Origin: Tricholomella constricta
Lineage: Eukaryota; Basidiomycota; Agaricomycetes; Agaricales; Lyophyllaceae
Direction of reading: 5' to 3'
Assembly: GCA_013368375.1 (NCBI GenBank)
Contig: JAACJP010000024.1
Coordinates: forward strand, 496,001 to 560,000
Length of the DNA: 64,000 nt
In this document: piece by piece, positions 28,198-61,415 of the stretch
Numbering within the stretch: the first letter of the stretch is position 1
How the letters are laid out: every line of letters starts with the position of its first letter
Program-made: the position numbers and the translations under genes
Notes under the pieces: model-generated
The model's database searches: none
What the model was told of the DNA's origin: nothing
Seen by the model: the letters and a program-made list of their open reading frames with translations, nothing else

Positions 28198-28694
28198 TGT
28201 TAGGGGAACACCTGTTTGGTGATCACGTGACCATCCGATTCCTCGGACGAGCACGTGACCGACCGCTCCCCAGATGATCGCGATCCCGACCCCGACGCTC
28301 CGCCCCAAGCATCGGTGTACATACTTATAACTTCCTGTCGTTACTTCCCCTTCCAGCGCGCGCCCGATCCCGATTCCCGACATCCCGACGTCGGTCACCC
28401 GACCTCGTGCGCCTGCACCCTGAGCCACGAGGATCGGACAGCGTCGGGAACGTGTACATACACGCGCCGCTGCCCATCCGTTATCATTTACGTACCATAC
28501 ACCCCAGAGAGCCGGCCCTCAAGTAGTTACTCGTATATAGTCATCCTCCTGACATGGGGGAATCCTTTACTCTATTCTCATTGGATTCCCCTCTGCCAGG
28601 TAGGTCTACTTACGTTCTCTCTAATCGTACATAATATAACATTGGATTCCCCTCTGCCAGCACGACTAAGCTCTGCGCTGAGGTCGCCCTAACA
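28198..28694 (+). repeat. 5' LTR
   Basis: TG...CA ends, 497 bp. It contains an internal duplicated motif CATTGGATTCCCCTCTGCCAG (near 28580 and 28640). The 12-nt stretch 28567-28578 is complementary to the primer binding site, so transcription is predicted to start at about 28567, as in self-primed Tf1-type elements. Confidence 0.95.
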
Positions 28695-28696
28695 GC

Positions 28697-28708
28697 AGAA
28701 TAGAGTAA
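28697..28708 (+). promoter_or_regulatory. Predicted self-primer binding site
   Basis: AGAATAGAGTAA lies 2 nt after the 5' LTR and is perfectly complementary to 28567-28578 (TTACTCTATTCT) within the LTR. In Tf1-like elements the first bases of the RNA fold back and prime at such a site in place of a tRNA. The tRNA alternative was not excluded by a search. Confidence 0.7.
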
Positions 28709-28821
28709 CTCTAGAAACCCGACGAAGCCGACCGATCCGCTTCCGCGCCGAAACACGCGTCTGCTACACGCGACCGTCCAACGCGCGCTCGCCCCGATCG
28801 CCCGTCCAGTCCCGTTTCGAG

Positions 28822-30036: not shown

Positions 30037-33000
30037 TTACACAACGGGTGGAACGTACGCCCCCGTTGTCTAGTCGTAATCGGTTCGCTCCTTTATCCGT
30101 AGAATACGCCAATACACCTAATATTGCTGCTATTCCGACGAGTGAACCGACCGACAAAGACGTACAAAACCCCTCCGACCCGACGACACCAATCGCAGTC
30201 GCAAAGCCGATCGCCCCGTCGCGTCGTGGCCTACCCCGCTGGGAAAAGCGACTCCCTAGTCGCTTCATCGCCGCTGCCTCCCCCTGCCCCAGATCCCTGT
30301 GGCTCAACGTCGAACTGGAGACCACCGACACCCAGGAGTCGCATGCCGTCACTGCCCTAGTGGACAGCGGAGCGACTGGCAGTTTTCTCAATGTTGCTTT
30401 CGTCGAGAAACACAAGCTCACAACCAAGGTGCTTAGTCGGCCATCCCCGGTTTACAATGTGGACGGCACTCTCAACGAAGGCGGTTCGGTCTCTTGCATC
30501 GTAGAAGCTGTCTTGCGATACAACGGTCATACCGAACGAGCCGTCTTCGGGGTCACCCAGTTAGGCAAGCAAGACATGATCCTCGGGTTCAACTGGCTTA
30601 AAAACCATAACCCCGAGATCGACTGGGAGACCAAGGAGGTGAAGATGAGTCGCTGTCCGACGCAGTGCGGCACCTGCAAGGACGAGGTCAAAGCCGATCG
30701 GCGCGCACGCACCAAAGTGCGCGCAGCGATCCGCGCCTGTCGAGCCGACGGTATACCGATGACTGAGCCCGACCTGCGAGCCCCGACCAACCCGTATGTT
30801 GAGGACGACTCTGATGAGGAGGAGTTCCTCCCCTACACCCCGGTCCTGGAGGAACCTGACCCAGAGTCTGACGACTTCCTGGTGGAAACCTTCCTGAGTG
30901 GCGATCGCATCTTCGCGACCGCGATCCATCCGACTCCGACCGCCGAACATATTCGGGCCAGCCAAACGACATCGCAGCGACTTGCGGAAGCGCACGCTGC
31001 TAACTCCGTGCCCAGAACTTTCCGCGACGCAGTACCGACCCACCTCCACGACTTTGAAGATGTCTTCTCCAAAGTCGCATTCGATGAGCTTCCAGAGCGC
31101 AAGCAATGGGACCATGCCATCGAACTGGAGCCGGGCGCGTCGCCGACGGGCACGAAGGTCTACCCGCTCTCACCGGCAGAACAGGTCGAACTCGACGCGT
31201 TCCTCAAGGAGAACCTCGAGACAGGTCGCATCCGACCGTCCAAGTCGCCCATGGCGTCGCCGGTCTTCTTCATCAAGAAGAAGGACGGGTCGCTCCGACT
31301 GGTTCAGGACTATCGGACGCTCAATGCGCTCACGGTGAAGAACCGATACCCGCTGCCCCTCATTAGCGAACTGGTGAATAACCTTCGCGGCGCGCGGTAC
31401 TTCACCAAGTTGGACGTCCGATGGGGGTACAACAACGTGCGGATCAAGGAAGGCGACGAGTGGAAGGCAGCGTTTCGGACGAATCGCGGCCTCTTCGAGC
31501 CGCTCGTCATGTTCTTCGGCCTCACGAACAGCCCCGCCACATTTCAGACCATGATGAATGATATCTTCCGCGATCTGATCGCTGAAGGTGTTGTTTGCGT
31601 GTACCTCGATGACATCTTGATTTATACAAAGACGCTAGAGGAACACCATCGGGTCACGCGACTGGTACTGGACCGACTCCGCGAACATCAGCTGTTCTTA
31701 AAGCCCGAGAAATGCGAATTTGAGCAGACTAAGATCGAGTATCTCGGGCTGATCATCTCGCAAGGGCAAGCGGAAATGGATCCGGTTAAAGTCGCTGGAG
31801 TGTTGGAATGGCCGGCGCCGAAGAACAAGAAGGAGGTGCAAGCGTTCCTAGGCTTCACCAATTTCTACCGACGGTTCATCCAGGACTTCTCGCACCACGC
31901 CCGACCCCTGTTCGATCTGACAGGCAAGGACGTCGCCTGGCGATGGGGAGAGTCGGAGCAGTCGGCCTTTGCCCTTCTGAAGTCTGCGATCACATCGGGG
32001 CCAGTCCTCATGTTCCCCGACGACGATCGACCGTACCGCATCGAAGCCGACTCGTCCGACTTCGCAACGGGCGCAGTCCTGTCGCAAGAGTCGCCGTCCG
32101 ATGGCAAGTGGCACCCGGTCGCGTTCTACTCGAAGAGCTTGAACGCCGTCGAGCGGAACTACGAGATCCATGACAAAGAGATGCTGGCGATCATCCGGTC
32201 TCTGGAGGAATGGCGACACTTCGTAGAAGGCGCAAAGCACAAGGTGGAGATCTGGACCGACCACAAGAACCTCGAGTACTTCCTCACCGCGAAGAAACTC
32301 AATCGGCGTCAAGCCCGATGGTCGCTTTACCTCGCTAACTTCGACTTCGCCCTCCACCACCGTCCTGGCCGTAGCATGGGCAAACCCGACGCGTTATCGC
32401 GTCGCCCCGACCATGGCGACGGAAGCGCCGACAACGCCAACATCGTGCTGCTCAAACCAGAATTCTTCGCCGTTCGTGCAACTGAAGGCCTTGCACTGGT
32501 CGGAGAGGAGGATGATGTGCTGAAAGCGATCCGCAAGGGCAATCGCGATGGGGCTCAGGAGGATGCGGTCGCGAAAGCGGCGCAACTGGTCAAAGCATCC
32601 AAGATCGCCGGCCGCTCCCTTCGCTTTGGCGAGTGGGGAGAGGAAGGCGGTCTGCTCACGTTCCGTGGACGGATCTATGTCCCGAACGTCCCAGACCTTC
32701 GCCGACGCATTGTGGAGCAGCACCACGACTCCAAGGTCGCCGGTCACCCCGGTCGCTGGAAGACGCTCGAACTGGTGTCGCGCAACTACTGGTGGCCCCA
32801 GATGTCGCGCTTCATCGGTTCGTACACCAGCACCTGTGACATGTGTCTGCGCACGAAACCTCGCCGCCAACTCCCCGTCGGACAGCTGCAGCCGCTTCCC
32901 ATCCCCGAAGGCCGATGGAATGTCGTATCGGTCGACTTCATCACCGAACTTCCAGAGTCCAACGGCCACGACGCGATCATGAATGTCGTGGATTCAGTTG

Positions 33001-34067
33001 GAAAGCGCGCGCACTTCATCGCGTCGCACACGACTTGTTCGGCCCTGGGAGCTGCGAACCTCTACCGTCGCCACGTCTGGAAGCTGCACGGTCTCCCCGA
33101 CGCATTCGTCTCCGATCGAGGTCCACAGTTCGTCGCCGAGTTCACGCGCGAACTGTACAGACTCCTGGGTATCAAGCTGTCGGCCTCGACGGCGTACCAC
33201 CCACAGACCGACGGACAGACAGAGCGTGTCAACCAGGAACTGGAACAGTTCTTGCGAGTCTTCTGCAATGAGCGCCAGAACGATTGGGAGGACCTCCTGC
33301 CCGACGCCGAATTCAGTTACAACAACCATGTACATTCGGCGACGCAGCAGACCCCCTTCCTGCTTGACACTGGTCGGCATCCGCGCATGGGCTTTGAGCC
33401 GCGTCGGGGCGCTTCCAAGAACGAGTCAGCAGACGAGTTCGTGGAGCGCATGAAGGAAGCACAGGAGGAAGCCAAGGCAGCGCTTTCAAAGGCCAAAGAC
33501 GACATGGAGCGGTATTACAACCAGTGGCACGCCCCAACGCCCGACTACCAGCCTGGCGACAAGGTATACTTGGACGCGACCGACATTTCTACGACCCGAC
33601 CGTCTAAGAAGTTGTCGCATCGCTACCTTGGCCCTTTCGTCGTGCAAAGGCGAGTCGGCCCGCTGGCATACCGCCTCCTGCTGCCTCAGTCCATGAAGCG
33701 CATCCACCCAGTCTTCCACGTCGTGAAGCTCATCCCCGCCATTGCTGATCCGATCGAAGGTCGTCGATCCGATCCCCCTCCGCCCCCCGACATAATCGAC
33801 GATGAACCCCATTACGAAGTTGAAAAGATCCTCGATAGCCGAACCTTCCGCAAAAAACTACAGTACAAGGTCCTGTGGAAGGGCTATGGTTACGAAGAAG
33901 CTTCTTGGGAACCTCGCGAAAATGTCGCCGCCCCCGATCTGGTACGCAAATTTCACCGCGACAACCCCGACGCCCCACGCCACATTCGTGGCATCTTCAC
34001 TCTATCCCCCGCCATCTTCGCCACCGTCACCCCGCACCGAGTCGTTGCGATTCAAAAGGGGGGGTGA
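30027..34067 (+). CDS. Pol polyprotein: protease, RT, RNase H, integrase, chromodomain
   Basis: About 1,340 residues counted from 30048. Order: aspartic protease (TALVDSGATGSFLN, near residue 106); reverse transcriptase with DGSLRLVQDYRTLN and catalytic VCVYLDDILIY (about 516-524); RNase H (RIEADSSDFATGAVLSQE near 665; WTDHKNLEYF; HHRPGRSMGKPDALSRR); integrase zinc motif HHDSKVAGH...CDMC (near 890-930) and catalytic DFITEL (about 962), FVSDRGPQF (about 1019) and QTERVNQE, with exactly 35 residues between the second Asp and the Glu; and a C-terminal chromodomain (YEVEKILDSRTF, YKVLWKGYGYEEASWEP; about 1254-1310) that would direct insertion to marked chromatin. No ATG lies near the start, so translation is predicted by -1 shift from gag. 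It ends at TGA just before the 3' LTR. Confidence 0.95.
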   Translation, partial: GFLITQRVERTPPLSSRNRFAPLSVEYANTPNIAAIPTSEPTDKDVQNPSDPTTPIAVAKPIAPSRRGLPRWEKRLPSRFIAAASPCPRSLWLNVELETTDTQESHAVTALVDSGATGSFLNVAFVEKHKLTTKVLSRPSPVYNVDGTLNEGGSVSCIVEAVLRYNGHTERAVFGVTQLGKQDMILGFNWLKNHNPEIDWETKEVKMSRCPTQCGTCKDEVKADRRARTKVRAAIRACRADGIPMTEPDLRAPTNPYVEDDSDEEEFLPYTPVLEEPDPESDDFLVETFLSGDRIFATAIHPTPTAEHIRASQTTSQRLAEAHAANSVPRTFRDAVPTHLHDFEDVFSKVAFDELPERKQWDHAIELEPGASPTGTKVYPLSPAEQVELDAFLKENLETGRIRPSKSPMASPVFFIKKKDGSLRLVQDYRTLNALTVKNRYPLPLISELVNNLRGARYFTKLDVRWGYNNVRIKEGDEWKAAFRTNRGLFEPLVMFFGLTNSPATFQTMMNDIFRDLIAEGVVCVYLDDILIYTKTLEEHHRVTRLVLDRLREHQLFLKPEKCEFEQTKIEYLGLIISQGQAEMDPVKVAGVLEWPAPKNKKEVQAFLGFTNFYRRFIQDFSHHARPLFDLTGKDVAWRWGESEQSAFALLKSAITSGPVLMFPDDDRPYRIEADSSDFATGAVLSQESPSDGKWHPVAFYSKSLNAVERNYEIHDKEMLAIIRSLEEWRHFVEGAKHKVEIWTDHKNLEYFLTAKKLNRRQARWSLYLANFDFALHHRPGRSMGKPDALSRRPDHGDGSADNANIVLLKPEFFAVRATEGLALVGEEDDVLKAIRKGNRDGAQEDAVAKAAQLVKASKIAGRSLRFGEWGEEGGLLTFRGRIYVPNVPDLRRRIVEQHHDSKVAGHPGRWKTLELVSRNYWWPQMSRFIGSYTSTCDMCLRTKPRRQLPVGQLQPLPIPEGRWNVVSVDFITELPESNGHDAIMNVVDSVGKRAHFIASHTTCSALGAANLYRRHVWKLHGLPDAFVSDRGPQFVAEFTRELYRLLGIKLSASTAYHPQTDGQTERVNQELEQFLRVFCNERQNDWEDLLPDAEFSYNNHVHSATQQTPFLLDTGRHPRMGFEPRRGASKNESADEFVERMKEAQEEAKAALSKAKDDMERYYNQWHAPTPDYQPGDKVYLDATDISTTRPSKKLSHRYLGPFVVQRRVGPLAYRLLLPQSMKRIHPVFHVVKLIPAIADPIEGRRSDPPPPPDIIDDEPHYEVEKILDSRTFRKKLQYKVLWKGYGYEEASWEPRENVAAPDLVRKFHRDNPDAPRHIRGIFTLSPAIFATVTPHRVVAIQKGG
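34054..34064 (+). promoter_or_regulatory. Polypurine tract
   Basis: AAAAGGGGGGG ends 3 nt before the 3' LTR, overlapping the last pol codons. It would prime plus-strand DNA synthesis. Confidence 0.8.
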
Positions 34068-42927: not shown

Positions 42928-44394
42928 ATCAGCGGAGGATGACTTTCACCATTGGGTGATCCCAACAAAGGTGAATGACAGCCGCCTGACTACTGCAGCA
43001 GCCGTCCAGTGGCCATTTGCCCCTGCCCCTGCCCCTGCTCCCCATGCCCCCACTGCACTGGCCCTTAGGCTGCTCCCCTAGGGCATTCCAACAGAGGTAG
43101 ACCAGATGTGCAACCGAACGCTGCCAACAATGACTTCTGCTTCTGGTACAAGAGGAAGGGCCACTTCTCCTGTGACTGCCCCTTGTACTGGGACATTTGC
43201 CACTTGCTTGACAATGAGCTGGAAGAGCTCATCATGGAGTGTCTAGCCTGCAAGGATGCAATCCTCCCTGACCTGACTCTATCGTCAGCTGGCGCAGTCG
43301 CCTCCAACACTGAAGAGGGTTTTTAGTTGCATAACAGGTGGCGTTGTCTAGTTGTATTTGGTTTTGCCCCCTATCCATAGAATATGCCAATACACCTAAT
43401 GTTGTTGCTATTTCTATGGGTGAACCAACCAACAAAGACATACAGAACCCTTCAGACCAAATCACGCCAATTGCAGACACCAAGCCAATTGCTCCATCAT
43501 GTCATGGTCTACCCCGATGGAGAAAAGCGCCTCCCTGGTTGCATCATAGTCGCTGCCACCCCCTTCCCCAGATCCTTGTGGCTGAATATTGAACTGGAGA
43601 CCACTGACACCTAGGAGTCACACACCATCACTACACTGATGGATAGCAGAGCGACTGGCAGTTTCCTCAATGCTGCCTTTGTCATGAAACACAAACTCAC
43701 GACCAAGGTGCTCAGTCAGCCATCTCTGGTTTACAATGTCGAATGCACTCTCAATGAGGGCGGCTCTGTTTTGTGCATCATAGAAGCTGTCCTGTACAAC
43801 GGTTATACTGAACAAGCCGTGTTCGGGGTTGCTCAGCTAGGCAAGCACAACATGATACTCAGGTTCAACTGGCTTAAAAACCACAATTCCGAGATCAACT
43901 GGACGACTCGAGAGGTGAAGATGAGCCACTGTCCCTTGCACTGTGACACCTGCAAGGACAAAGCCAAAGCCAAATGGCATGCCCACACCAAGGTGCGTGC
44001 AGCAATCTGCACTTGTCAGACTGATGGTGTCCTGATGCTTGAGCCCGATCTGTGAGCCCCGACTAGTCAGTATGTCAAGGAAAACTCTGATGCCAATGAA
44101 TTCCTTCCCTATACCCCAATTTTGGAGGAACCTGACCCAGAGTCTGATGACTTTCTTATAGAGACCTTCTGAATGGTGATTGCATCTTTGCAACTGTGAT
44201 CTACCTGACTCCGACCGCCAAACACATTTGAGCCAGTCAAACAATGTCGCAGCGACTTGCTGAAGCACACACTGTGAACTCTGTGCCCAAGTTGTTCCGT
44301 GATGCCATCCTGATGGTCGCTCTACCTTGCCAACTTTGATTGTGCCCTCCACCATCGTCCGGGATGCAGCATGGGCAAACCCAATGCACTGTTG
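42928..44394 (+). pseudogene. CpG-depleted old copy of the chromodomain Gypsy element (left part)
   Basis: Matches the intact element from about 29616 onward. 43108-43326 retains a gag knuckle with its first Cys changed (DFCFWYKRKGHFSCDC) and ends EEGF, stop; 43339-44055 retains the pol start and protease (MDSRATGSFLN where the intact element has LVDSGATGSFLN). From about 44312 the sequence jumps to the RNase H end (equivalent of 32316), so the reverse transcriptase is deleted. Differences are dominated by CG to TG or CA. The copy is split at 44394 by a DNA transposon and resumes at 51342. Confidence 0.85.
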
Positions 44395-44556
44395 TATGGC
44401 AACAGGGACAGACCAGCTTGCTAACCGACGGTCAAACCCGTATTTCAAGCTCCGCCGAGCGCCAAACAATGCCAGGGTCCGAACCAGTTCATCTGATGAT
44501 TTCGCGATAATCGGGACCTTCGCCGCAGTTTGCTCAGCCTCTCAACTACAGTCCTC
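44395..44556 (+). repeat. Left 162-bp terminal inverted repeat
   Basis: Reverse complement of 51180-51341 with no difference seen. Starts TATGGCAACAGGGACAGACC and ends CTACAGTCCTC. Confidence 0.95.
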
Positions 44557-44572
44557 AATGTTGTGTCTCAAT

Positions 44573-46743
44573 TTCAGAATGCTATTTCGCTGCAGCAGTT
44601 ATTTGGCTCTGAGTACCCTAAGCCGGTGATCCCAGTAAGTTGTTGTATCAAAACAGTGGACTGTTCTATCGGACATCTAGCAAGTGATTAAGGCAGCCCG
44701 TGTTTCTTAACATTGCGTGCCATGGTTAATATTCTAGGTCTGGATATCGCGAATTGGACCCAGCAACATGCACTAGAATACGTCTCGATCCTGAGGAAAA
44801 GTACGGGTCGGGTTTCATGAAAACATGCACATCACACATGTAAGTCATGAGGCCGTCATTTTCGACTACTTATATCCAAACCGCGCATTAGGAACAGACC
44901 CAGACATTCGAGTACCACTCGAGTTCTCCTTATGCCTCGCACAAATCAATACAAGCCTATACGTACGTCTTTGTTCCTTTTCAGACCTTCATTTTCGAAG
45001 CTCTGAACTGTTCAAGCCTCGCCGGAGGAGGATCTTTATCATTGGGTCCGCCGTTACTGGCGTTTTGGTTTACCGGACAACAGAATCGTCGAACATACAC
45101 TCGAACACTTTGATAAGGAGAAGTATGGATTTAGGTGAATATTTTTATCTGCATAAGAAACTTTCCACAGCTAAATCTCTCAGTGTCTCGTCATTAAAGA
45201 GAGTTCGGGCGAAGTTGGGGCTCGTAGGAACACGCAAACGAAATGCGTCCTTTGAAGAAATCGCGCCGTTTCTACTGGAAATCCGAGAACGATTCCCAAC
45301 CATGGGTGCCCGGCAAATGGTTACCGTCTTGCGGCATGATTACGAACTCAAGGTTCCCGAGTGCGTAGCCTTGTGTACGCAAATTCATTGTCATTGATGG
45401 CTATTCTCAGACAGCGCCTGTTGGAACTCTTCAGGGCGACCGAACCGGAAGCCATCAATGCACAGAAATCCCTCAAATTTCGGCGGAAGCGGTTTTGGGC
45501 AGCGGGTGTGATGGATATCTGGGCCATTGATCAGCATGACAAGTGGCAGCGGTTTGGGTTGTGGATGCATTGTTCAATAGATCCATATCCTGGCCGCGTG
45601 GCGTGGCTGAAAATCTGGTGGTGTAATCGGAACACTCGACTTATCAACAGCTATTACATTGCAGCAGGACGAAGCGTTGGTGGTAAGTATATCTGTCTCT
45701 CCCCACACTGCAATTGTTTACCAGGCATATTGCACTAGGCATTCCTCTCATCACTCAAAGTGATCGCGGACGCGAAAACAATGGGGTGGCAAATATGCAT
45801 ACATCGCTTCGCCACCGTCTGGACCCCAGCCTCAGTGACACACTGCAACATCGATGGTGCATTGACAAGAAAAATATCAAGCCTGAGGCGCTTTGGTCAC
45901 AGCTCCGTCGCCAATTCACACCAGGATTCGAGAAAAGGCTAGACGAGGGGTTGAATAATGGATGGTATGACCCTAACAATCCAATTGAGAAGTATGTATC
46001 CCTTCTAATGGGCTATTCTTGCTGCTAACGTCCACGATCTCAGACTATTATTTCGATGGCTTGCCATACCCTGGCTCCAGGCCGAGCTCGATGCTTGGAC
46101 TTTGCGCTATAACTCTAGCTCCCGGCGCGCCGACAAGCACAAAATCCTTCCTCAAGGTATTCCTGACCTAATTCACGAGAAACCCGGCCACAGTGGGTCA
46201 AAGAACTTTATGGTACAATTCACGCACATGTTCAATTTCAAGTTTCTTATCTATCACATGCTCTTTCTTCAGGTCGTTGTATCTCCAGAACTTTTCGATG
46301 AAATCAAAAAAGAATGGGCTCCTCCTAATGATCCCGTTTTCCGACTTGTACCTTCAACATTTGACAACCAAGCATCTGCTTTGTATGCAGCTATCGGACA
46401 TCCTACAGTATCATCTTCCACATTTTGGCCAGTCTACCAGGAGATGCTAGACGCATTTCATGCACTTCCTCGTGACCCCATCCTTGCAGCAGCTCTACTT
46501 ACTGCTAATTACGGTGAGGAGAATGACGTACCGCTTATGGCTGGGCTCAGAGAGCTTCGGCACGGTGACAATGTTGTTGGGCAGCATGGTTACATTTATT
46601 ATGGTGGTTTAGAAGATCCTGGCTTGCCTCCAGGAGCTGATTTCGATGGTGATGATGAAGGCCCAGAGGGTGGCGGCGCTCAAGATGATGATGATGATGG
46701 ATTAGCTGTAGATCTCCGAGAATATGCAGACTTTAGTGATTAA
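44573..46743 (+). CDS. Integrase-core (DDE) transposase, multi-exon
   Basis: Clear exons: about 45030-45360 (DLYHWVRRYWRFGLPDNRIV; then VRAKLGLVGTRKRN, IRERFPTMGARQMVTVLRHD), 45411-45682, 45739-45991, 46044-46212 and 46273-46743, with GT...AG introns of 50-60 bp between them. The catalytic core reads AGVMDIWAIDQHDKW (first Asp), GIPLITQSDRGREN (second Asp) and KKNIKPEALWSQLRRQF (probable Glu), as in integrase-like DDE enzymes widespread in mushroom genomes. The C-terminus is acidic. The N-terminal exon(s) upstream of 45030 are uncertain, and the join near 45130 may need a frame change. It would cut and rejoin the element ends. It is co-oriented with the two following genes. Confidence 0.75.
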
Positions 46744-46832
46744 TAGCATATCTCATTCACACCTGTCACATCTCATTTTCGCTTGCCGTTTCTCTTACTC
46801 CACTCTCAGCTCATTACTGGCCACGTCACCAT

Positions 46833-48142
46833 ATGTCTGGAGAGACAACTCAATATGCAGCCGATTTTACGGGCGTCGACAACAGTGCTTCGATGCATTG
46901 TGGACGTGAACAATGTGCTACGAAGACATTTCCTGGCGGAACAAAGATGAAGCAATAATCCCAAAGAGCCAGCTATCAGTACTACATGCAGAAGGCTACA
47001 ACAAAATGTCAGTCCCCGAGTGCCATGCCCACGGAAAATTATCGGAAAGAAATTCGCAAACAAGTTTCGAGCGCACAGCGAGGACGTGAGTTTTTCTTTT
47101 ACCTTGAAGGCTTTCAACAGCTCACGGAGTGCAGAGGGAACAAATGTAGTTCAAGCAGTGGGCACCAGTGCATATGCAGCGCCGTTTCAAGCAGGATATA
47201 TCATTGGGACATCAAATGGTCCTATGCGGGTGGGAGGGCCATTGATACAGCTACCTGGCCTAACTCCACCACATGCTATGGGGCAGATGCCAACAGCCCG
47301 ACCAGTTCAAGCAGGAAGTTCTGGTTACACCAGCAATCACGCCGCATACTATGCAACACGGCAGTCACTGGCGCAGAAGGCGTATGCAACAAATGGTGGA
47401 AACGTATATTCAACTTACGCAGAACATTCCCCATGACGGACGGACACAAGCTCGAAATCTGACAATGGAGATTGCGTGCCTTGTTTGGGCACGTGTACTC
47501 CTTGATCTTGTATATGTCTTCATCGAGAAATGTGTATCGACAAAAGGCCAGCCACAGTTCGACATTCCTCAGCTTAGATTTGTCGAGGCTGCTCTGGCTG
47601 TTGAAGATGCAGATAGCAGTCGGGAAAGCCGTGTCTTCTTGGTGGAAGAGGTTATTGGGGGTGCAAGCGAAGGGTCATTCCGCAAGTACATGAACAATGT
47701 CTCTCCAGTTCCCCTCCCATTATCAGACGAAGCAGACAAGGAGCGCGCACTTTTCCTTGCCTTCAGCCAACATGTTCAGTATTTCAAGACCAAAAAGATG
47801 GCTTTTATATCGGACTACCAAGGTGTGTGGCTTCCTATCGTATTATTATGACATTCATCCCACTGATCTCTATGTAGGAGGCAGATTGCTTAGTGATCCA
47901 CAGATTGTGACAAATAGGTGAGTGATACTACCGCTGCCTCTTGTCGTGAAGTGCGCAAAGTTCTTATGATTTTTTTAAGCGCTCTTGGTGTTATTTTTGC
48001 CGATGGCAATGTTCCGTCCAGCCACGAGAATTTCGAAATCAACCACCGATGCAACCACTTCTGTGACTTTTTTGAAGACCCAACTGACTATGATGTCTGG
48101 GAGTCGCATGCGTCAACTCTTCGCCCCGACATCTTTACTTAG
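46833..48142 (+). CDS. Alpha-kinase (atypical protein kinase), transposon cargo
   Basis: The kinase domain is recognisable from about 47455: IACLVWARVLLDLVYVFIEK, SRVFLVEEVIGG, FLAFSQHVQYFKTKKMAFIS, DYQ, then an intron (47823-47877), GGRLLSDPQIVTNS, a second intron (47918-47979), LGVIFADGNVPSSHENF, and NHRCNHFCDFFE. The DPQI box, the GNV glycine-rich motif and the H-C-H-C zinc-binding cluster are hallmarks of alpha-kinases. The N-terminal half (47020-47436) is low in complexity (Gly/Pro/Ala/Thr) and joins the kinase domain by a frame change or intron near 47430. Upstream ATG at 46833 (MSGETTQYAADF, CGREQCATKTFPGG) may start the gene, but the splicing there is unclear. Targets are unknown; it lies between transposase and TET/JBP genes. 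Confidence 0.7.
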
Positions 48143-48766
48143 TCTGGTTTAGTTGCACACATGTTGACTTTCCTCGCGTCCTTCTTTCCTTATTTCATCC
48201 CTCTGCAATTATCTATTCCTCACATTCCTTAAATCAATTGCGCTCTTTAGTTACCTTACAACAGATTATTCCCTTCATTTACGCCCCTTATTCCAACCAT
48301 CCATATAGCCCCGTTATCCTCCAACATTATATTTACGTCCCATACAGTGGGATATAATGGTTGACTTATCTAATGATGTTTTTACTCAAGTAACGGACAT
48401 GTGATGCAGTGGCCCTCGCCACTACCCACCACAGTCTTACTTGGGCCCGCCTCCCACCGGCAAGAAACGTAGTAAGGAACTTGTGTTTTCGTCTGCTTTT
48501 TACCGCTGCCATGGGGCAGGCAGCTCGTAGACTCCAGGACTACACCAGGTCCGAGTACGCACGCTGATTGCCCCATGACAGTTGTAAAAAACAGATCCTT
48601 GCGTTCTGCCTGACCTGCACTAAAACGCGCCCTCAGACATATATTGATGAAGCCGCCAATTTTTTTGGCCCGCAGCGTATGTTTCCTCCTTCTCCATCTC
48701 GCGTTTTTTGCCATGATATTGGTGCACCTGCAGACGCGCTCTGGGGCAGAGTTTTCGCCGTTTCAA
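48143..48766. other. Intergenic region between alpha-kinase and TET/JBP genes
   Basis: No coding sequence recognised. It should hold the promoter of the dioxygenase gene; no clear TATA element was assigned. Confidence 0.4.
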
Positions 48767-50289
48767 ATGTCGGTCGTTGAAGCCCCGGCATTCAGCCTCC
48801 CCAATGCCCTCAAGTTATCTCTGGTGGAAGAAGATCGCGAGGATGATGTATTTTCTGCTCGCTTGCCACTGAACGATCATCGCACTAAATCCTTGACTTC
48901 ACAGATATCTCATTCGAGCCACTCCAACTCAACTCTCCTGGCACCCCCACCTCCTGGAGCTGCCGCTTCAGCCAAGCGTCCGCGATCTCCATCGGTTGAT
49001 GCCGACAACGGTCGGTGCGCAGCGTCTGAAAATACCCATGTGAAGAATCTGCTTCCCGGCCGCCACTGCAACACTCGGCGTAATCGAAACGCACGCGTTC
49101 ATGGGAAACGTCAGCGCCGACGCGATGCTGCCGCCAAAGAGCAGGGCCATCACGTCCTGCAGCCCGCCATTGCAGCCACTCATGTCGACAGAGCAGTGCC
49201 CATCACCACCTCACTCAAGGCCGCGGCGCTGCCTACCACCAGCTGCGGATATCTGGCCCTCAACTCATTGCCCGGCGAAGGCGCCTCCTTCAAGTCACTT
49301 CAAGAGGCGTTGGATGCCGGCTGCCGCTTGATCGAATGGGATGGCATGTATGTTGCAATCTTGCATTCAATTCTCCATGCGATTGACTGCTTCTTAGCAC
49401 CCCTATGCCGTTTCTGGACCGCGAGGGTCGAATCTTTGGCGGCGGCATCGGTCAACGATCCGAGCTATGCGGAATCCTGCCGACGGGCCTATGAGGCCAT
49501 CATGGAAGAGGGCCGGCGCGCCAATTTTTCCGACGCAGAACACAACCACCGCCGAGGAAACTTTCCCGCCATTAACGTCGGCGTCACCATGGCGCCTGGT
49601 GCTGCTCATCCCACTAATCTCGGCCTTGGTCCTCACAAAGGCATGGCCCAGCGTCTCCTCAACAACCCAGACATCATGCGGATCGCGCACTTCGCTGATG
49701 GTGAGTTTGCACCCGTTGGTCTCATCACTGCGTGCCCATTATTTCTCGCCTAGGAGCATTCAACCTCTGGGCGCCCAACATCCATCAGCGCTATCGCAAC
49801 CACCTGAACCCTCTTTTTGATCGACTTCCCGACCTTCATAAAATTTTTCCCCGAAGCATTTTTCCTGCAGCCGCGATCAACTTTGGCGGCAACGTCTGGA
49901 CAAAGTCGCATCGCGACAGCAAGAATGCAGCAATCGGATGGTGTGGAATACAGTCACTCGGGCCTTTCGATCCCAAGAAAGGTGGCCACCTTGTGCTCCC
50001 AGACCTCAAAATTGTCATCGAGTTCCCACCGGGCTCACTCATATTCATCCCATCGGCAACGTTGACGCACGCTAATATCCCTGTGCAACAGGGTGACAGT
50101 CGCGTCTCATTTATACAGTACTGCGGTGGCGGGTTGCTCCGCTTTGTCGACAATGGCTTCTGTACGGAAAAGCAGCTTATGATGAACGATCCGGAGGAAT
50201 ATCGGCGGATGTGCCAGCTCAAGGCTGGGCGGTGGGAACGAGAAGTGAAGCTCTACCAGAAGCTAGAAAATATTGTATGTAAAGTCTGA
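48767..50289 (+). CDS. TET/JBP-type 2OG-Fe(II) dioxygenase, transposon cargo (one possible frameshift)
   Basis: Exon 1 (48767-49347) has a basic Arg-rich region (RRNRNARVHGKRQRRRDAAA) and FKSLQEALDAGCRLIEWDG. Intron 49348-49397. Exon 2 opens TPMPFLDREGRIF, as expected for the family, but NDPSYAESCRRAYEAIMEEG downstream is in another frame, so one extra base lies at about 49435-49455 in a GGCGGCGG run: real damage or a sequencing error. Intron 49701-49753. The catalytic exon has AAAINFGGNVWTKSHRDSKN (HxD), GWCGIQSLGPFDPKKGGHLV, IEFPPGSLIFIPSATLTHAN (distal His) and SRVSFIQYCGGGLLRFVD (2-oxoglutarate Arg). Relatives oxidise 5-methylcytosine in DNA. The ATG at 48767 was preferred to 48644, which would add a hydrophobic leader unlikely for a nuclear enzyme. 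Confidence 0.8.
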
Positions 50290-51179
50290 AGTGCTTGGTG
50301 CATTCTGGACCGCAATGATCATTTATCACATGTGTAAACTACTAACAAAAAGAACAGCGTAAAGCTGCTTGATGAGTTTCGAGATGCCATCGCGGTCACT
50401 CGGCAAATCTTGAATAATTGTCGCCCTGCGTGGAGCCACCCGGCGTCAAATTGCTGTTGCCCTGCAAGTCAAAAGAACGCGATGCCACTCGCATGTCTCG
50501 AGTATTCACCGTCGTCGCCCTGCAGGCCAGAGTGATCGCATTGAGTGCGAGAATTCGTCCTCAAAGTCTATCCTCCGAGGGGGCATCAGAATCAGGTATA
50601 GAGAAGACATAAGAAGGAAAATCGCACCTGGGACAGAAGCATGCGCCGACGATCTTCATCGACGCACCCATTGACAGGTCCCGCAGACACCGCAGCGCAA
50701 GGACTCCCGAAAAAACCACCAGGCAGCGCGCGACGTTGCGAGGAACATTGAGATATTGAGTTTGAGTGGCCCTCAGAGTCTAACCCTCAAGGTCCAGCAT
50801 TGGAGCATCAGAGGCAGGTATAGAGAAGGCGGGAAAGAAGATCGCACCTGGAACAGAAGCACGAACCGGCGATCTTCATCGACACACCCATCGCCAGGTC
50901 CCGCAGACGCCCCTGCAGTCGCGACACCCCCCAAAACAACCACCAGCCTGCGCGCGCTGTGGCGAATAATATTGAGGTCAATCGATAGATGGAGAATGCG
51001 TCGAAGCTGGCGGCCGGCAGCGTCAGTCCTTGGAGCAGAGGTTGGCAACTTGGCATGATACAAAAGAAGACACACCAAGTATCCCATACATGCAGGCCAA
51101 TCATATTGAAAAAAAAAAACTAGAAAAGTACCGGAGGGATGAGTTGTGAAGTCACCATTCACTGTTGACGTTGTGGCCA
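50290..51179. repeat. Right non-coding arm with a diverged direct repeat
   Basis: Two copies of an approximately 180-bp unit lie at about 50577-50760 and 50804-50985, offset by about 225 bp. Both contain GCATCAGA(A/G)(T/G)CAGGTATAGAGAA, ATCGCACCTGG(G/A)ACAGAAGCA, CGATCTTCATCGAC and CAGGTCCCGCAGAC. No coding role is apparent. Confidence 0.6.
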
Positions 51180-51341
51180 GAGGACTGTAGTTGAGAGGCT
51201 GAGCAAACTGCGGCGAAGGTCCCGATTATCGCGAAATCATCAGATGAACTGGTTCGGACCCTGGCATTGTTTGGCGCTCGGCGGAGCTTGAAATACGGGT
51301 TTGACCGTCGGTTAGCAAGCTGGTCTGTCCCTGTTGCCATA
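51180..51341 (-). repeat. Right 162-bp terminal inverted repeat
   Basis: Mirror of 44395-44556; ends GTCCCTGTTGCCATA, followed by the target duplication CTGTTG. Confidence 0.95.
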
Positions 51342-51655
51342 CTGTTGCATTGTGCCGACCACGGCGACGGAAGCAGTGACAATGCTGACATTGTGCTCCT
51401 CAAACCTGAGTCTTTTGCAATTCACGTGACCAAGGGTCTCATACTGATTGTAGAGGGGGACAATGTGCTGAAGGCAATCTGCAAGGGAAATTGTGATGGC
51501 ACGCAGGAGGATGCGGTTGTGAAGGTGGCACAACTGGTCAAGGCATCAAGGATTGCCAATCGCTCCCTACGCTTCAGCAAGTGGGGGGAGGAAGTGGTCT
51601 GCTCACATTCCATGGACAGATCTATGTCCTGAATGTTCCTGACCTTTCACTGCGT
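51342..51655 (+). pseudogene. CpG-depleted old copy of the chromodomain Gypsy element (right part)
   Basis: Continues the element interrupted at 44394: HGDGSSDNADIVLLKPESF, QEDAVVKVAQLVKASRIAN and RSLRFSKWGEE match the spacer between RNase H and integrase of the intact pol. Similarity stops near 51655. Confidence 0.85.
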
Positions 51656-52033: not shown

Positions 52034-54600
52034 TCAGTCGAGTAGCCCGGCGCCTTGTTGCTGGTCGGCAAATACCAGTCCAGCAGCAATTGCTTCGTCT
52101 CGCCTTAGCAAGCGGAATAATTCAGGTACCCAGATGAGATCTTCTGGGCGTACTGGTTGATCGTGCAGGCCTTCGTCAGGCTGCATGCGATGTGCTAATC
52201 TGCGGTGATGCACCTCACGGCCGTTGCGGTTACTGGGACATTGGTCCAGGATGTGGGCTCTGGTTTCGAGCCCTCCGTTGCGACAGGAGCAGTTCACCTC
52301 CTCAGAAAGGTTAAACCGCCTCCGGTACTCGCCAATAGGGGCGTGATTGAGGATGCTACAAGACATCCGAGCGGTGTGGGCATTTGACTTGCCCATTACT
52401 TTAAGCCATGGGCTACCATCAAGGTGTGATGGTGCTATTGGCTTGCCTTTCCTTTTTGTTCGAAGGAACGATCTGCCACTGTATTCAGGTTGCTGGAACA
52501 GACGAGTCCATTCCTTCAGCATCTGTTCAACAGTGCGTTTGCGCGCATAATCTAGTGATGTGCGTGAGCGAGGTCCTTGTGGCACTTTCAGCTGCATAGC
52601 AGCCTCATGCGACGAGAAGTGGATATCCCACCGCAAACGGCTTGGGATGTGGATGAATTGCACATGGCGGTCTGGATGGTCAGACAACCAAGTACGAAGT
52701 TTGGAGCAGATTGCAATCGAATGCATCTGGCCTGAATGTAGACTGGCATCCAAAGCCCACTTAATGGCCTTGGTTGAGTCCGAGAAGACCAGAATTCTGT
52801 CCGAGTCTGGTCGTTGAAGTGCTTTGCCTACAGCCATTGCGATGGCTGCGAGTTCAGCATCGTCTGAGGTAGCTTTGCTGGCCACCTGCCGGGATACACT
52901 GGGACCTACGTCCCCGTGGATGAGGGTGCAGGCAATAATTGCCTGGAGTCGATTGTCAGTGGGGACCGAGGCGTCCGCTGCAACCATGACGGTTCGCGGA
53001 TCCAGGCCTCCCTCAGTGCGAAGCGCATCCAAGTGGTTGCGTCGATCAGCTAGGGCCTCTTTATCCCGGGGGATGTCAAGGTCATAGGTGATTTGGGCTC
53101 CAAACAAGTCAGAAACCCGTTGCCCTGGTGTGGCCTCCTCGTGGAGGGGGTCATGGGCTCATTGACAACAGAGGCGTTAGCCTCCGCGTCCATCACAGAA
53201 GATTTAACTCGCTTCTGTAATGAGGGTGCCATACTTGATATGGCGCAGGGGTGGAATTCCTCCCCTCTGAACAGACCATGCCGTGTCATGAGAGAGAGTG
53301 TTGGATGTGTGTTCAGGAGTGTACGAGTCCGGGCGAAAGAGCGATCGACCAGTTTCTTGATGTGCAGATGGACAGGTGGTAAGCCTGCAAGGGTTTCCAC
53401 CCCTCCACCTGGAGATGTGCGAAATGCACCAAGTATCCAGAGCGCCGCCTTGCGTTGCATCTGGGCGAGTGACTTCATAACCATTTTGTTACGAGCGCCT
53501 TTATATGTCCATAACCTGCACCCGTACGTGGCCAAGGGCAGCACACAGGCGCGGTAAAGGAGACGTTTTTGAGAGGGGGTGATCCCCCGCGATGAGTTGC
53601 CAAGCATCACCATGGCTTTCACCGTGGTGAGTGACTTGGTAGCGTAGTATTTGACATGGTCTTTGAATGTAAGACCTCTGTCAAAATAGAACCCAAGGTA
53701 GCGCCAGACGCGCTTTGGCTTGAGTGGGGTGTCCTCTGTGTAGGGGGCATAGCCTAAGTCAATCGATGGGTTATCATCGGTTGCTTTGCGGGAGAAATGA
53801 AAGACTTCAGTTTTGTCGTGTTCAAGGAGTAAACCAATCGCATCCACCAGTTCATTGATGACTGCGTAGGCTTCCTTGAGTTTAATGAGATTTGTATCCC
53901 ATGTTTTAGATTGGACAATGAGGGAGCCATCGTCCACGTATGACATTAGAGTGCAGAGGTCCACCTCGATTCTCTTCTGGAAAATTCTCATCACTGGCAC
54001 AAGGTACAGTGCAGAGAGGATTGGAGACAGAGCGGACCCTTGGCCAACCCCGACATCAGCGCGCATCCTGGGCGAGGACTCTGTGTTCCACGCATAGGAA
54101 GTATAACGATCCACTAGGTAGGATCGAAAGAAGTTAACAACAGCCGGGGAGAAGCCTAGCCGCTCCAGCGTTGCGATGAGAACCTCATGGGTCAAGGAGG
54201 GAAAGAATTGTGCCAGGTCAAAGGCAACAACGCTTGTTTTCAATCCACGGGCCCAGCCCGTCTTGACGATGTGGGTAAGGTACACCCCAGCATCTTCAGT
54301 GGAATGCTGACGCACTCCTCCGAACTGGTTGGGATGGAAGATACCATGCTTTGCTGCTTCAAACTGCATACGGTTTGCGAGCATTTTCTCAAACAGCTTC
54401 CCGAGCGTGTTCAATAGCACAATAGGCCTGAATGCTTTGGGAGTGGAATATGAGGGCTTGTTCAGTTTTGGGAGAATGACCGAGCGAGACTCTTTAAAGT
54501 GAGATGGCCAGTAAAGGTCGCTTGTTCTTGGTGGCAATGGTTTCGATGCGTTCATCGAAAAATTGCCGTTTAGCCGCCTTTGTGGCGCGCCTAAGAGCCC
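52034..54600 (-). pseudogene. LINE-B ORF2 remnant: reverse transcriptase and RNase H
   Basis: 53050-54603 holds the reverse transcriptase: AFRPIVLLNTLGKLFEKML, TSVVAFDLAQFFPSL, VGQGSALSPILSALY and LMSYVDDGSLIV. After a frameshift near 53080, 52034-53107 holds RNase H: TVMVAADASVPTDNR (first Asp), DDAELAAIAMAVG (Glu), RILVFSDSTKAIKWA (Asp). A cysteine/histidine motif follows (CSCRNGGLETRAHILDQC) and then an in-frame deletion. The stop is at 52034. Confidence 0.85.
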
Positions 54601-56103
54601 CATAGTCTGCAGACCGGGACTGTCTGTACTGCCTCATCGCAGTGGCGCAGTCAGCATTCCACCAGGCTTTTGACCGGGTGTTCACTTTGACTGTTTTGGC
54701 ATTTGAGTTCCATGCGTCGTTGCAAGCTCTTGCAAGGCCTGCAATCAGGTCTTCTAGAGCGTCGCGTGTGTCAATATTGGAGATGTCCATTGACTTAATG
54801 TAGGTGAGCAGTGCTTGTAGAAACGATGATTCCTCTTTTGTGTTTGCTGGGAACCAAGAGCGCGCCGCGTCGATAACGACGGGCAGGTCCTCGGCTGTGG
54901 GGGTGGATTGTGTAGCAAGTACGATGCCTCCCATGCCTGTAAAGGCTTGGGCGACGCGCAGACGACGGCGGTTGGATGCCAGTCGATTGTTAAGAGGGGT
55001 GACAACTGTTTCAAGGTTGCCCGTGAACGTGGCCTCTGCATACACAATGATCTGCATACGAGAGGGACCGCGGGTCGTTGACTTCACCCGTTTAGAGGGT
55101 GGAGGTGAGGATGGGGAACCCGCAGAACGCTTTACGTTCTGTTGGTACAAAGTCGAGATCTCTGAGGCAGAGAGCTCGGGGAACACCTTAGCAAGAGCAA
55201 GGATGCCCTCCACTGAAGTGTTTGTTGTAGGTGCTGGCGTTTTGGCAGGTGCCCGACGCGCAGCAGCAGCGAACGTTCCCCCAGGGAGGGGGCGCGAATG
55301 GCGAGGGATAGGGGGTGGGGGACCTCCTGGAGTGGGGCGCGCGTAGCTGCGCTTAAGGACAGGCTTAGTGGCTGCAGGAGCCGCATCAGTCTGTTTGGAG
55401 TTCGGTGTAGCTGGGGGCTTCGCGCCATCGCGCTGCTTGCCCTTAGCTTCAGAAGAAGTCAACGGACCCGCTCCCCCGGATGGTGCAGGGAACGGGGGCG
55501 ACGGTAGTGGGTTCCCTGGGTAGGGAACGTGAAGAATACACGCATCGCGCACTGCACACAGTGTCTCGATGGTGCGGTCGTTGCCAGCATCTTTGGCAAG
55601 GAGATTGATCAGTCCTAGATCAGCAGCGCCCTCGAAGAGCTCTGTGATGCGATGGGCCAGTGCGACACACATTTGTGCGGTAAGGGGCGATGTAGAGCGC
55701 TCCCGGTAGTGGAGCCACTCCTTGATCGATAAGAGGGAATCGAAGACGGCCTTGGCATCGCTGTTGATGTCCCCATCACCTCCAGTGAGGCCTATGGGGG
55801 ACCCGTCGCCTGATTGTCCATAGAATGCAACAGGGTCATCTGTATGCATGGGTGTACTGTCCCTGCTCACCTGGGACGCGTTTTCATCGTCAGCATCGTC
55901 CGATCCATCCTTATCTCCCTTCCAACGCTTTGGGTCGGGTGTTGGGGCAGAGGGCGACGCTGGTCGCGATGATTTCATCGAGGGAGGCGCCGCGGGCGCC
56001 TGGGGGCGTTGGGGGGTGGTTTCGAGGTCATCCCCCCCCCAATCCATTGGATCCACTGGGATCTCCGAGGATCCCGGTGGTGTAGTAGTGAAAAAGGCGT
56101 CAG
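54494..56103 (-). pseudogene. LINE-B ORF1 fused in frame to ORF2 remnant
   Basis: The frame begins MSSSDAFFTTTPPG, as in the intact ORF1, runs to SWFPANTK, then passes in frame into EESSFLQALLTYIKSMDISN, which belongs to ORF2 after the endonuclease. Zinc knuckles and endonuclease are absent. It stops at TKNKRPLLAISL where the second deletion shifts the frame. The fusion is a deletion product, not a natural ORF. Confidence 0.85.
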
Positions 56104-56200
56104 AGCTGCTCATAGGTGCAGATCTGACTGAGATCGAGCGAGAAATAGAGGCTAGAGAGGCTAGAAGAGGTTGCGAGGTTGCGACTTGTGGCTGTGCACG

Positions 56201-56215
56201 CACCTAGCCACAGTC
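56201..56215 (+). repeat. 15-bp target duplication of LINE-B copy (right)
   Basis: CACCTAGCCACAGTC, second copy of 51707-51721. Confidence 0.95.
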
Positions 56216-58960: not shown

Positions 58961-59351
58961 TTATAATATGTCTGCTCGTTCTGCTAGCCAGCTTTGGTAA
59001 TCATCCCACATAGCCCTTGCAATGCCATCCCTCATTACGCTTGCTCGAATTTTCTCTTCTTGTGAAATTTGAGATCCCAAATAATCAGGATTGATTGGTG
59101 CTGTGACATGCGCTACCCCATCCACCTCATAATCACCATCCCTATCTGCTTCATCATCAGGATCCACGATGCGAATAAGATTATGAAGTGCAGCTAGTGC
59201 AAGGGGGATCTTCGCTTGCGTCCGGAGGTCGTACTCGGGTGCTGCAACTATTAACTTGAATCGCCGCTTGCAGACACCAAAGATTCGTTCTATAACGTTC
59301 CGAAGAGAAGCATGTCTGAGGCGCTCATCGCTTCTTGATTCAGCACCACCA
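58961..59351 (-). pseudogene. Harbinger nuclease (DDE) C-terminal fragment
   Basis: Minus-strand reading: DERLRHASLRNVIERIFGVC carries the third catalytic acid in IERIFG; KRRFKLIVAAPEYDL and KIPLALAALHNLIRI follow as in this family, then an acidic linker and SVMRDGIARAMWDDYQSWLA. The N-terminal two thirds with the other catalytic residues are missing because LINE-B begins at 59352. The open frame artificially continues into LINE-B antisense sequence up to 59704. Confidence 0.8.
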
Positions 59352-59438
59352 CGTGCACAGCCACAAGTCGCAACCTCGCAACCTCTTCTAGCCTCTCTAG
59401 CCTCTATTTCTCGCTCGATCTCAGTCAGATCTGCACCT

Positions 59439-61415
59439 ATGAGCAGCTCTGACGCCTTTTTCACTACTACACCACCGGGATCCTCGGAGATCCCAGTGGA
59501 TCCAATGGATTGGGGGGGGGATGACCTCGAAACCACCCCCCAACGCCCCCAGGCGCCCGCGGCGCCTCCCTCGATGAAATCATCGCGACCAGCGTCGCCC
59601 TCTGCCCCAACACCCGACCCAAAGCGTTGGAAGGGAGATAAGGATGGATCGGACGATGCTGACGATGAAAACGCGTCCCAGGTGAGCAGGGACAGTACAC
59701 CCATGCATACAGATGACCCTGTTGCATTCTATGGACAATCAGGCGACGGGTCCCCCATAGGCCTCACTGGAGGTGATGGGGACATCAACAGCGATGCCAA
59801 GGCCGTCTTCGATTCCCTCTTATCGATCAAGGAGTGGCTCCACTACCGGGAGCGCTCTACATCGCCCCTTACCGCACAAATGTGTGTCGCACTGGCCCAT
59901 CGCATCACAGAGCTCTTCGAGGGCGCTGCTGATCTAGGACTGATCAATCTCCTTGCCAAAGATGCTGGCAACGACCGCACCATCGAGACACTGTGTGCAG
60001 TGCGCGATGCGTGTATTCTTCACGTTCCCTACCCAGGGAACCCACTTCCGTCGCCCCCGTTCCCTGCACCATCCGGGGGAGCGGGTCCGTCGACTTCTTC
60101 TGCAGCTAAGGGCAAGCAGCGCGATGGCGCGAAGCCCCCAGCTACACCGAACTCCAAACAGACTGATGCGGCTCCTGCAGCCACTAAGCCTGTCCTTAAG
60201 CGCAGCTACGCGCGCCCCACTCCAGGAGGTCCCCCACCCCCTATCCCTCGCCATTCGCGCCCCCTCCCTGGGGGAACGTTCGCTGCTGCTGCGCGTCGGG
60301 CACCTGCCAAAACGCCAGCACCTACAACAAACACTTCAGTGGAGGGCATCCTTGCTCTTGCTAAGGTGTTCCCCGAGCTCTCTGCCTCAGAGATCTCGAC
60401 TTTGTACCAACAGAACGTAAAGCGTTCTGCGGGTTCCCCATCCTCACCTCCACCCTCTAAACGGGTGAAGTCAACGACCCGCGGTCCCTCTCGTATGCAG
60501 ATTGTGTATGCAGAGGCCACGTTCACGGGCAACCTTGAAACGGTTGTCACCCCTCTTAACAATCGACTGGCATCCAACCGCCGTCGTCTGCGCGTCGCCC
60601 AAGCCTTTACAGGCATGGGAGGCATCATACTTGCTACACAATCCACCCCCACAGCCGAGGACCTGCCCGTCGTTATCGACGCGGCGCGCTCTTGGTTCCC
60701 AGCAAACACAAAGGTCACGGCGGAAATCCCAGCGTCGCGCTCCTATTTGAAGATCGTCAACGTCCCCTTCTTCCAGAAGGTGGGCGGGGCACCTATCACG
60801 CAGGATCTCGTCGAATCGCGCATTTGTCAAGATCCTGTCACCAAGAACTTCCACCTTGCATCCAAGCCCCGGGTTTCGAGGAACTCGCCGGCGTCGGATT
60901 CCTGCACGGTGTGGTTCGACATCTGGGACACCCAGTCTGGGGCCAACCTCAAGCAGCTCGTCAACAAACGCTTGTCGTTTGGTGGCCAGATCTGCATGAT
61001 CCGACCTGCTGAGAAGCGTCCTGGCACGCCTCAGTGTCAACGTTGCTGGAAATGGGGCCACATCGACACACGATGCTCCTTGAACCGCAATATTTGCGCG
61101 CACTGTGGGGGCCCCCACGGTTTGCAATACCACCGGGTGTTGGGCAGTTGCTGCAAAGCGAAGCCCAAAGCAAACCCTCCTGTTGAAGCGACGCACCCCG
61201 ACGAGGATTGCCCGCATCCCCCCAAGTGCGTGAACTGCGGCGGTGAGCATCTTGCGAATGCAAAGACCTGCCCGTATTTCCGACACCGATTTGAGCCCGA
61301 GTGGATCAAGGGCAGATACGAACGAGACGCAGTAAGCAAACGCTTACAGCACTCTCGATCCCCTGCTGATGCAATTTCTAGGCGCAATCGTCCTAATATG
61401 CATACTTCATCGTAA
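59439..61415 (+). CDS. LINE-B ORF1 (gag-like, zinc knuckles)
   Basis: 658 residues from the ATG at 59439, which is preferred because upstream sequence is 5' untranslated LINE or Harbinger DNA. Acidic, Pro/Ser-rich N-terminus (MDWGGDDLETTPQRPQ); helical region (IKEWLHYRERSTSPLTAQM; IRELFEG-like ITELFEGAADLGLINLL); Pro-rich linker; an RRM-like stretch (TVWFDIWDTQSGANLKQL); then knuckles CQRCWKWGHIDTRC (CX2CX4HX4C, residue about 531), CAHCGGPHGLQYHRVLGSC and CVNCGGEHLANAKTC. It should bind element RNA. ORF2 starts 14 nt after the stop, so reinitiation is likely. Confidence 0.9.
   Translation: MSSSDAFFTTTPPGSSEIPVDPMDWGGDDLETTPQRPQAPAAPPSMKSSRPASPSAPTPDPKRWKGDKDGSDDADDENASQVSRDSTPMHTDDPVAFYGQSGDGSPIGLTGGDGDINSDAKAVFDSLLSIKEWLHYRERSTSPLTAQMCVALAHRITELFEGAADLGLINLLAKDAGNDRTIETLCAVRDACILHVPYPGNPLPSPPFPAPSGGAGPSTSSAAKGKQRDGAKPPATPNSKQTDAAPAATKPVLKRSYARPTPGGPPPPIPRHSRPLPGGTFAAAARRAPAKTPAPTTNTSVEGILALAKVFPELSASEISTLYQQNVKRSAGSPSSPPPSKRVKSTTRGPSRMQIVYAEATFTGNLETVVTPLNNRLASNRRRLRVAQAFTGMGGIILATQSTPTAEDLPVVIDAARSWFPANTKVTAEIPASRSYLKIVNVPFFQKVGGAPITQDLVESRICQDPVTKNFHLASKPRVSRNSPASDSCTVWFDIWDTQSGANLKQLVNKRLSFGGQICMIRPAEKRPGTPQCQRCWKWGHIDTRCSLNRNICAHCGGPHGLQYHRVLGSCCKAKPKANPPVEATHPDEDCPHPPKCVNCGGEHLANAKTCPYFRHRFEPEWIKGRYERDAVSKRLQHSRSPADAISRRNRPNMHTSS

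Follow-up and report, generated by a model that had tools for sequence, protein, structure and literature searches.

A low-copy IS3EU-type transposon of the mushroom Tricholomella constricta with alpha-kinase and TET/JBP dioxygenase genes beside its transposase

A 64,000-nucleotide stretch of the genome of Tricholomella constricta (Agaricales, Lyophyllaceae; contig JAACJP010000024.1, positions 496,001 to 560,000), here called the window, contains a 6,947-bp IS3EU-type DNA transposon (44395..51341, + strand) that is delimited by inverted repeats, exact target site duplications and comparison with empty sites. We propose, with a probability of about 0.7, that it belongs to a low-copy IS3EU/GingerRoot family whose complete form carries a transposase, an alpha-kinase and a TET/JBP dioxygenase on one strand, the dioxygenase countering silencing in trans.

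The left terminal inverted repeat (TIR; 44395..44556, + strand) starts with TATGGCAACAGGG and the right one (51180..51341, − strand) is identical to it at 162 of 162 bases, as had been claimed in a first-pass annotation made from the letters alone. Immediately outside lie two exact copies of a 6-bp target site duplication, CTGTTG (44389..44394 and 51342..51347, without strand), and a 163rd matching base beside the repeats is part of this duplication and not of the repeat. When the flanks are joined via a single CTGTTG they align without gaps to three insertion-free copies of a Ty3/Gypsy-like sequence, over 180, 178, and 148 columns, and the window element is therefore a clean insertion into the pol gene of a retroelement, whose nature was judged by eye from its open reading frames (ORFs). 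A chance inverted repeat is ruled out by the identical 162-bp arms, the duplications and the empty sites. Within the window itself, a Ty3/Gypsy-like retroelement at 28693-34067, with a 447-aa gag-like and a 1,379-aa pol-like ORF (also by eye), includes in its pol the empty counterpart of the insertion site.

A genome search with the repeat gave 13 matches (repeat counts being lower bounds), which we read as six elements: the window copy, C22, C16, C11, C4, and C45 together with C78 (seven elements if the last two are separate). Copy C22 (8,372 bp) contains the complete trio in identical order within the same repeats and has its own 6-bp duplication, which is the recurrence that the first-pass annotation had named as support for a defined element, while its opposite, accidental cargo with the TET or kinase gene at this one site alone, is contradicted by the C22 trio and by TET sequence in six of six copies (six of seven if C45 and C78 are separate). 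These findings support a defined mobile element whose cargo is recurrent and not accidental. The C22 models of TET (498 aa) and kinase (702 aa) are open, and the six transposase blocks compared contain no stop. Transposase and kinase are present in two copies and an open TET in one, TET being broken in five of the six. C16 and C11 (3.3 kb, 97.8% alike) are without transposase and kinase, and their TETs have in common a stop and the loss of ~0.1 kb from the interior; C4 and C45, which agree at 99.7% over 2,385 bp, lost transposase and kinase at other breakpoints, and their TET frames are broken. The repeats are identical within a copy (162/162 in the window, 153/153 in the aligned part of C22) and ~4-14% different from one copy to another; apparently the two ends of each copy undergo concerted evolution.

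Several other candidates were considered. Lone repeat ends on C78 (L012, 8213) and C45 (L013, 4289) both carry CATTTG, and this shared 6-mer makes it probable that a single nested element was divided between the two contigs. No TET was found in the 8 kb covered at C78, which is relevant if C78 is a separate, seventh copy; C78 as an element of different content was provisionally set aside as its CATTTG equals the duplication at the C45 end. An apparent 21.9-kb "giant" relative at C4 was interpreted as a TET-only copy interrupted by nested retroelements, with direct repeats of 535 bp (99.8%) and 477 bp (100%) and reverse-transcriptase/recombinase-like ORFs (by eye). Apart from the two close copies, the transposase has one distant match in the genome, at C15 (26% identity). 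This further and diverged locus (L070, 714000-718500) has an alpha-kinase ORF that scores 38.7 bits (cut-off 21.3); facing it tail to tail, ~150 bp away, are weak remnants of an integrase-core transposase, at 16.5 bits against a cut-off of 26. The ~150 bp that separate them contain no TET, and inverted repeats within 4.5 kb are short and imperfect only.

The transposase gene (44932..46743, + strand) is modeled with seven exons (44932-44962, 45017-45134, 45184-45360, 45411-45682, 45739-45991, 46044-46212, and 46273-46743) and is open over 496 aa, with the motifs WAIDQHDKW, TQSDRGREN, and NIKPEALW. The integrase core attributed to it earlier is borne out by its relatives, since P0083, P0094, and P0095 exceed the Pfam rva_4 cut-off and P0094 has an integrase fold. 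Searching the PDB with a transposase profile was uninformative, and Foldseek by itself produced no significant match for the transposase. HTH_21, which we take to be a domain of IS3 transposases, is present in 4 of 95 relatives. Upstream of the first catalytic Asp there is no cysteine and thus no HHCC, in line with the DDE transposases of IS3EU/GingerRoot, although this does not discriminate against Polinton, where HHCC is likewise absent according to PMC10045372/PMC8889193. The same sources and PMC12730594 give TA..TA termini (TAYGG..CCRTA in TET-carrying families), TIRs longer than 30 bp and 6-bp duplications as the hallmarks of IS3EU; the window element has TATGG..CCATA ends and TIRs of 162 bp, and exact 6-bp duplications, different in each copy, flank all five two-ended copies. 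An origin in another superfamily (Ginger, Polinton, or KDZ) has in its favor the integrase-core transposase, the retroviral integrases that score equal to IstA in the fold comparison of a transposase relative, and the TET genes that KDZ elements are known to carry (PMC12730594). Against the termini, the duplications, the HTH_21 relatives and, Polinton apart, the missing HHCC, we regard such an origin as very improbable. A KDZ element in particular was rejected, as the transposase between the repeats is of the integrase-core type and the nine window ORFs searched have no Pfam KDZ domain at E ≤1.

The alpha-kinase gene (46833..48142, + strand) is broken in the window, where ~1.1 kb present in C22 is absent at about 47405-47420. 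Its C-lobe is recognizable (Pfam Alpha_kinase, E 3e-7, 31.1 bits, cut-off 21.3) and retains the DPQ(I) loop and the C-terminal HxCxxxC, which we take to be alpha-kinase motifs. The kinase named in the first-pass annotation thus stands as a homolog and fails as a working gene, the N-lobe being lost, with an early stop and a frame change at the junction, so that a complete catalytic domain is lacking in the window copy and the N-lobe is found in C22. The missing lobe includes the stretch CAKQTYY, taken as the putative ATP-lysine region. A T. constricta protein, P0079, is identical to the C22 kinase across the 523 residues searched and reaches 56.8 bits with Pfam Alpha_kinase; the kinase profile matches TRPM7-type 1ia9 and MHCK-A. 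Among annotated proteins, transposase and kinase apparently lie on the same contig in Lyophyllum atratum, Arthromyces matolae, and Russula earlei, which share both genes with the window family and have no TET match there, and the two are annotated as a single gene in Tricholomella, Tricholoma furcatifolium, and A. matolae. The kinase is probably an older component of fungal IS3EU elements.

The TET/JBP dioxygenase gene (48647..50289, + strand) comprises four exons by our own splice choice (48647-48676, 48734-49347, 49398-49700, and 49754-50289) and is broken: compared with C22, exon 2 has lost 5 bp between 49452 and 49453, on the 5' side of the catalytic exon. The latter (49754..50289, + strand), with HRD, the distal His and the Arg, is open by itself. 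Its score of 15.2 bits does not reach the Pfam Tet_JBP cut-off of 34.9, a family that only 3 of 37 TET relatives match at E ≤0.01, and phmmer and profile searches of the PDB returned no TET structure, CcTET included, which is not evidence against the fold. The predicted fold of the relative P0001 is that of TET/JBP, with CcTET the closest solved structure, and on this prediction the TET/JBP identity is correct though not evident by sequence. What had been called a TET/JBP oxygenase therefore keeps its identity and its open HRD exon and loses its status as a working gene; in the same way, three co-oriented, intron-containing gene regions on one strand are confirmed, and a working cargo is not. 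The breaks in kinase and TET may be assembly errors.

The window TET is neither of the AG type, since by ungapped count from HxD it has N at CcTET position 331 (expected G/S) and C at 337 (expected D), nor of the PE type (HxE), having HRD; another TET of the same genome (L017) does have the AG residues. At least 78 related TET proteins were found by a search that scored only the 7,997 candidates with most shared words, and the 72 with organism names all come from what we take to be Agaricomycetes. In a tree of 54 rows (four family copies, 10 other TETs from the genome, and 40 of the 78 hits; P0062 and L026 were omitted for their motif pattern, the AG-like L017-L022 were not included, and the remaining hits were unchosen), the four family copies group together with support of 100/99, the shortest path from them leads to L. 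atratum, and the genome's TETs of the C15 and C66 types fall in another clade.

The first-pass annotation knew of no description of both cargo genes in an integrase-type element. The combination is in fact described: IS3EU elements with transposase, TET and alpha-kinase were published in 2025 from seven species of Pucciniales and from Tuber indicum (Kojima, PMC12730594). Those elements and the window family alike enclose the trio in TAYGG..CCRTA TIRs with 6-bp duplications. In the rusts and the truffle, however, TET lies between transposase and kinase and those two have opposite orientations, whereas the window family, from Agaricales, has the order transposase-kinase-TET on one strand; and the T. 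indicum TET is of the PE type, whereas that of the window has HxD without the G/D residues of CcTET. The accessible text of PMC12730594 names Kyakuja, Zisupton, EnSpm, Plavaka, and Helitron2 as TET carriers in Agaricomycotina and does not name a TET-carrying IS3EU there, and searches of the open literature listed nothing else on the combination. The same paper further reports no transfer of AG-type TET between superfamilies. Those Kyakuja/Zisupton (KDZ) elements that carry an AG-type TET, among them the CcTET relatives, resemble the window family in placing a TET/JBP gene on a mushroom DNA transposon and differ in transposase type and in AG residues, which the window TET lacks. Hence the window family is new, relative to the published TET-carrying IS3EU, in host subphylum, gene order, orientation and TET lineage. 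The gene arrangement argues for a separate TET capture, and it is a tentative, somewhat doubtful extension of this that kinase-bearing IS3EU captured TET independently in rusts/truffles and in mushrooms, the mushroom TET being a fourth transposon-borne type.

Insertion with 6-bp duplications is shown by the five two-ended copies and the empty sites, and the integrase-fold DDE transposase would be the enzyme that acts on the TATGG..CCATA ends to produce them. The TET would most likely oxidize 5-methylcytosine (5mC), whether in the element or in transposon DNA at large, and this oxidation would relieve methylation silencing, in trans for the whole family; escape from methylation-based silencing has been proposed for transposon TETs, with other base modifications allowed (PMC12730594). 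Relief is placed in trans because TET-dead copies have spread, and the spread of transposase-less derivatives likewise indicates help in trans. The alpha-kinase might conceivably have the transposase as its substrate, or else a chromatin or DNA-binding factor. The window copy is still able to encode its transposase, and C22 or other TETs of the genome would have to supply the missing TET and kinase activities in trans.

Selection and decay bear on whether the cargo is used. Between the window and C22 (L009), dN/dS over frame-intact blocks is 0.064 for the transposase (481 codons), 0.046 for the kinase (178), and 0.24 for TET (458). TET dS is 0.41 (95% 0.32-0.51; 48734-50274) versus 0.69 (0.55-0.86; 45025-46740) for the transposase, and the lower value could be explained by recombination or composition. 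With counts restricted to columns where the reference copies agree, CpG to TpG/CpA changes exceed other C/G transitions in C16 (21/192 vs. 17/680, P about 5e-6) and C11 (22/190 vs. 19/682, P about 5e-6) and weakly in the window (9/138 vs. 18/669, P 0.03), a mutation pattern that suggests that some copies are methylated.

A number of points weigh against a TET that counters silencing. The amplification of TET-dead derivatives (C16/C11 at 97.8% and C4/C45 at 99.7%) implies that intact TET in cis is not needed, and of the three genes TET has the highest dN/dS, which marks the weakest constraint. CpG excess is absent from C22 (34/214 vs. 109/882, P 0.18) and C4 (20/141 vs. 62/508, P 0.57), and the tests on C16 and C11, which are close relatives, are non-independent and effectively one observation. 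Among annotated proteins no TET relative apparently shares a contig with transposase or kinase relatives, a weak point, as the C22 TET is itself unlisted. In addition, the window TET has C where CcTET has D337, a residue described as essential to the 5mC activity of CcTET (PMC12730594). It is conceivable, if rather unlikely, that the oxygenase has a target other than 5mC in DNA (6mA, thymine or RNA) and would then act as, for instance, a CMD1-like modifier or an eraser of 6mA. That TET and kinase are passive cargo, riding along and decaying with no benefit to the element, would agree with the two broken cargo genes of the window copy, the broken TETs elsewhere and their amplification, and the high TET dN/dS. 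We nevertheless judge it improbable, given window-C22 dN/dS far below 1 in all three genes and 0.12 in the TET catalytic exon, the open C22 TET and kinase models, and the recurrence of the same cargo pair in the IS3EU elements of rust fungi and of a truffle (PMC12730594).

If TET was captured independently in rusts/truffles and in mushrooms, the doubtful reading given above, the repeated association of these two enzymes with one transposase type would suggest that base oxidation and phosphorylation form a two-part counter-silencing module, on which the whole family draws in trans and by which even derivatives without transposase stay mobile. The range of transposon-borne TETs is extended to IS3EU in mushrooms, and the family provides a tractable set (one full-trio copy, one with open transposase and broken cargo, and four with decayed TET only) in which the question of whether transposon TETs counter silencing, in cis or in trans, becomes directly testable.

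Other TET genes of this genome have different surroundings. At L067, L068, L069, and L071 (C66, C64) they adjoin oppositely oriented GCR1_C and NDC10_II ORFs, domains that we presume to be typical of fungal Crypton-type recombinases, and C66 and C64 share, at 99.8%, a 2.95-kb stretch that spans TET, the GCR1_C ORF and the greater part of the NDC10_II ORF. A search of the open literature listed nothing relevant on TET with Crypton, which the accessible text of PMC12730594 does not name. Two tandem TET units lie at C66 71856-84067 (8,690-bp spacing, 99.97% alike in a 3.5-kb comparison), and three TET matches at C2, about 1342706-1360591, form tandem units at 8,682-bp spacing. Across the window, Rfam gave no match at gathering score. 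LINE-like ORFs (reverse transcriptase, RNase H-like; by eye) at 52034-56203 and 59187-61415 lie in repeat-rich surroundings, and the His/Thr/Pro-rich low-complexity ORFs at 5518-6672 probably represent a repeat tract and not a gene.

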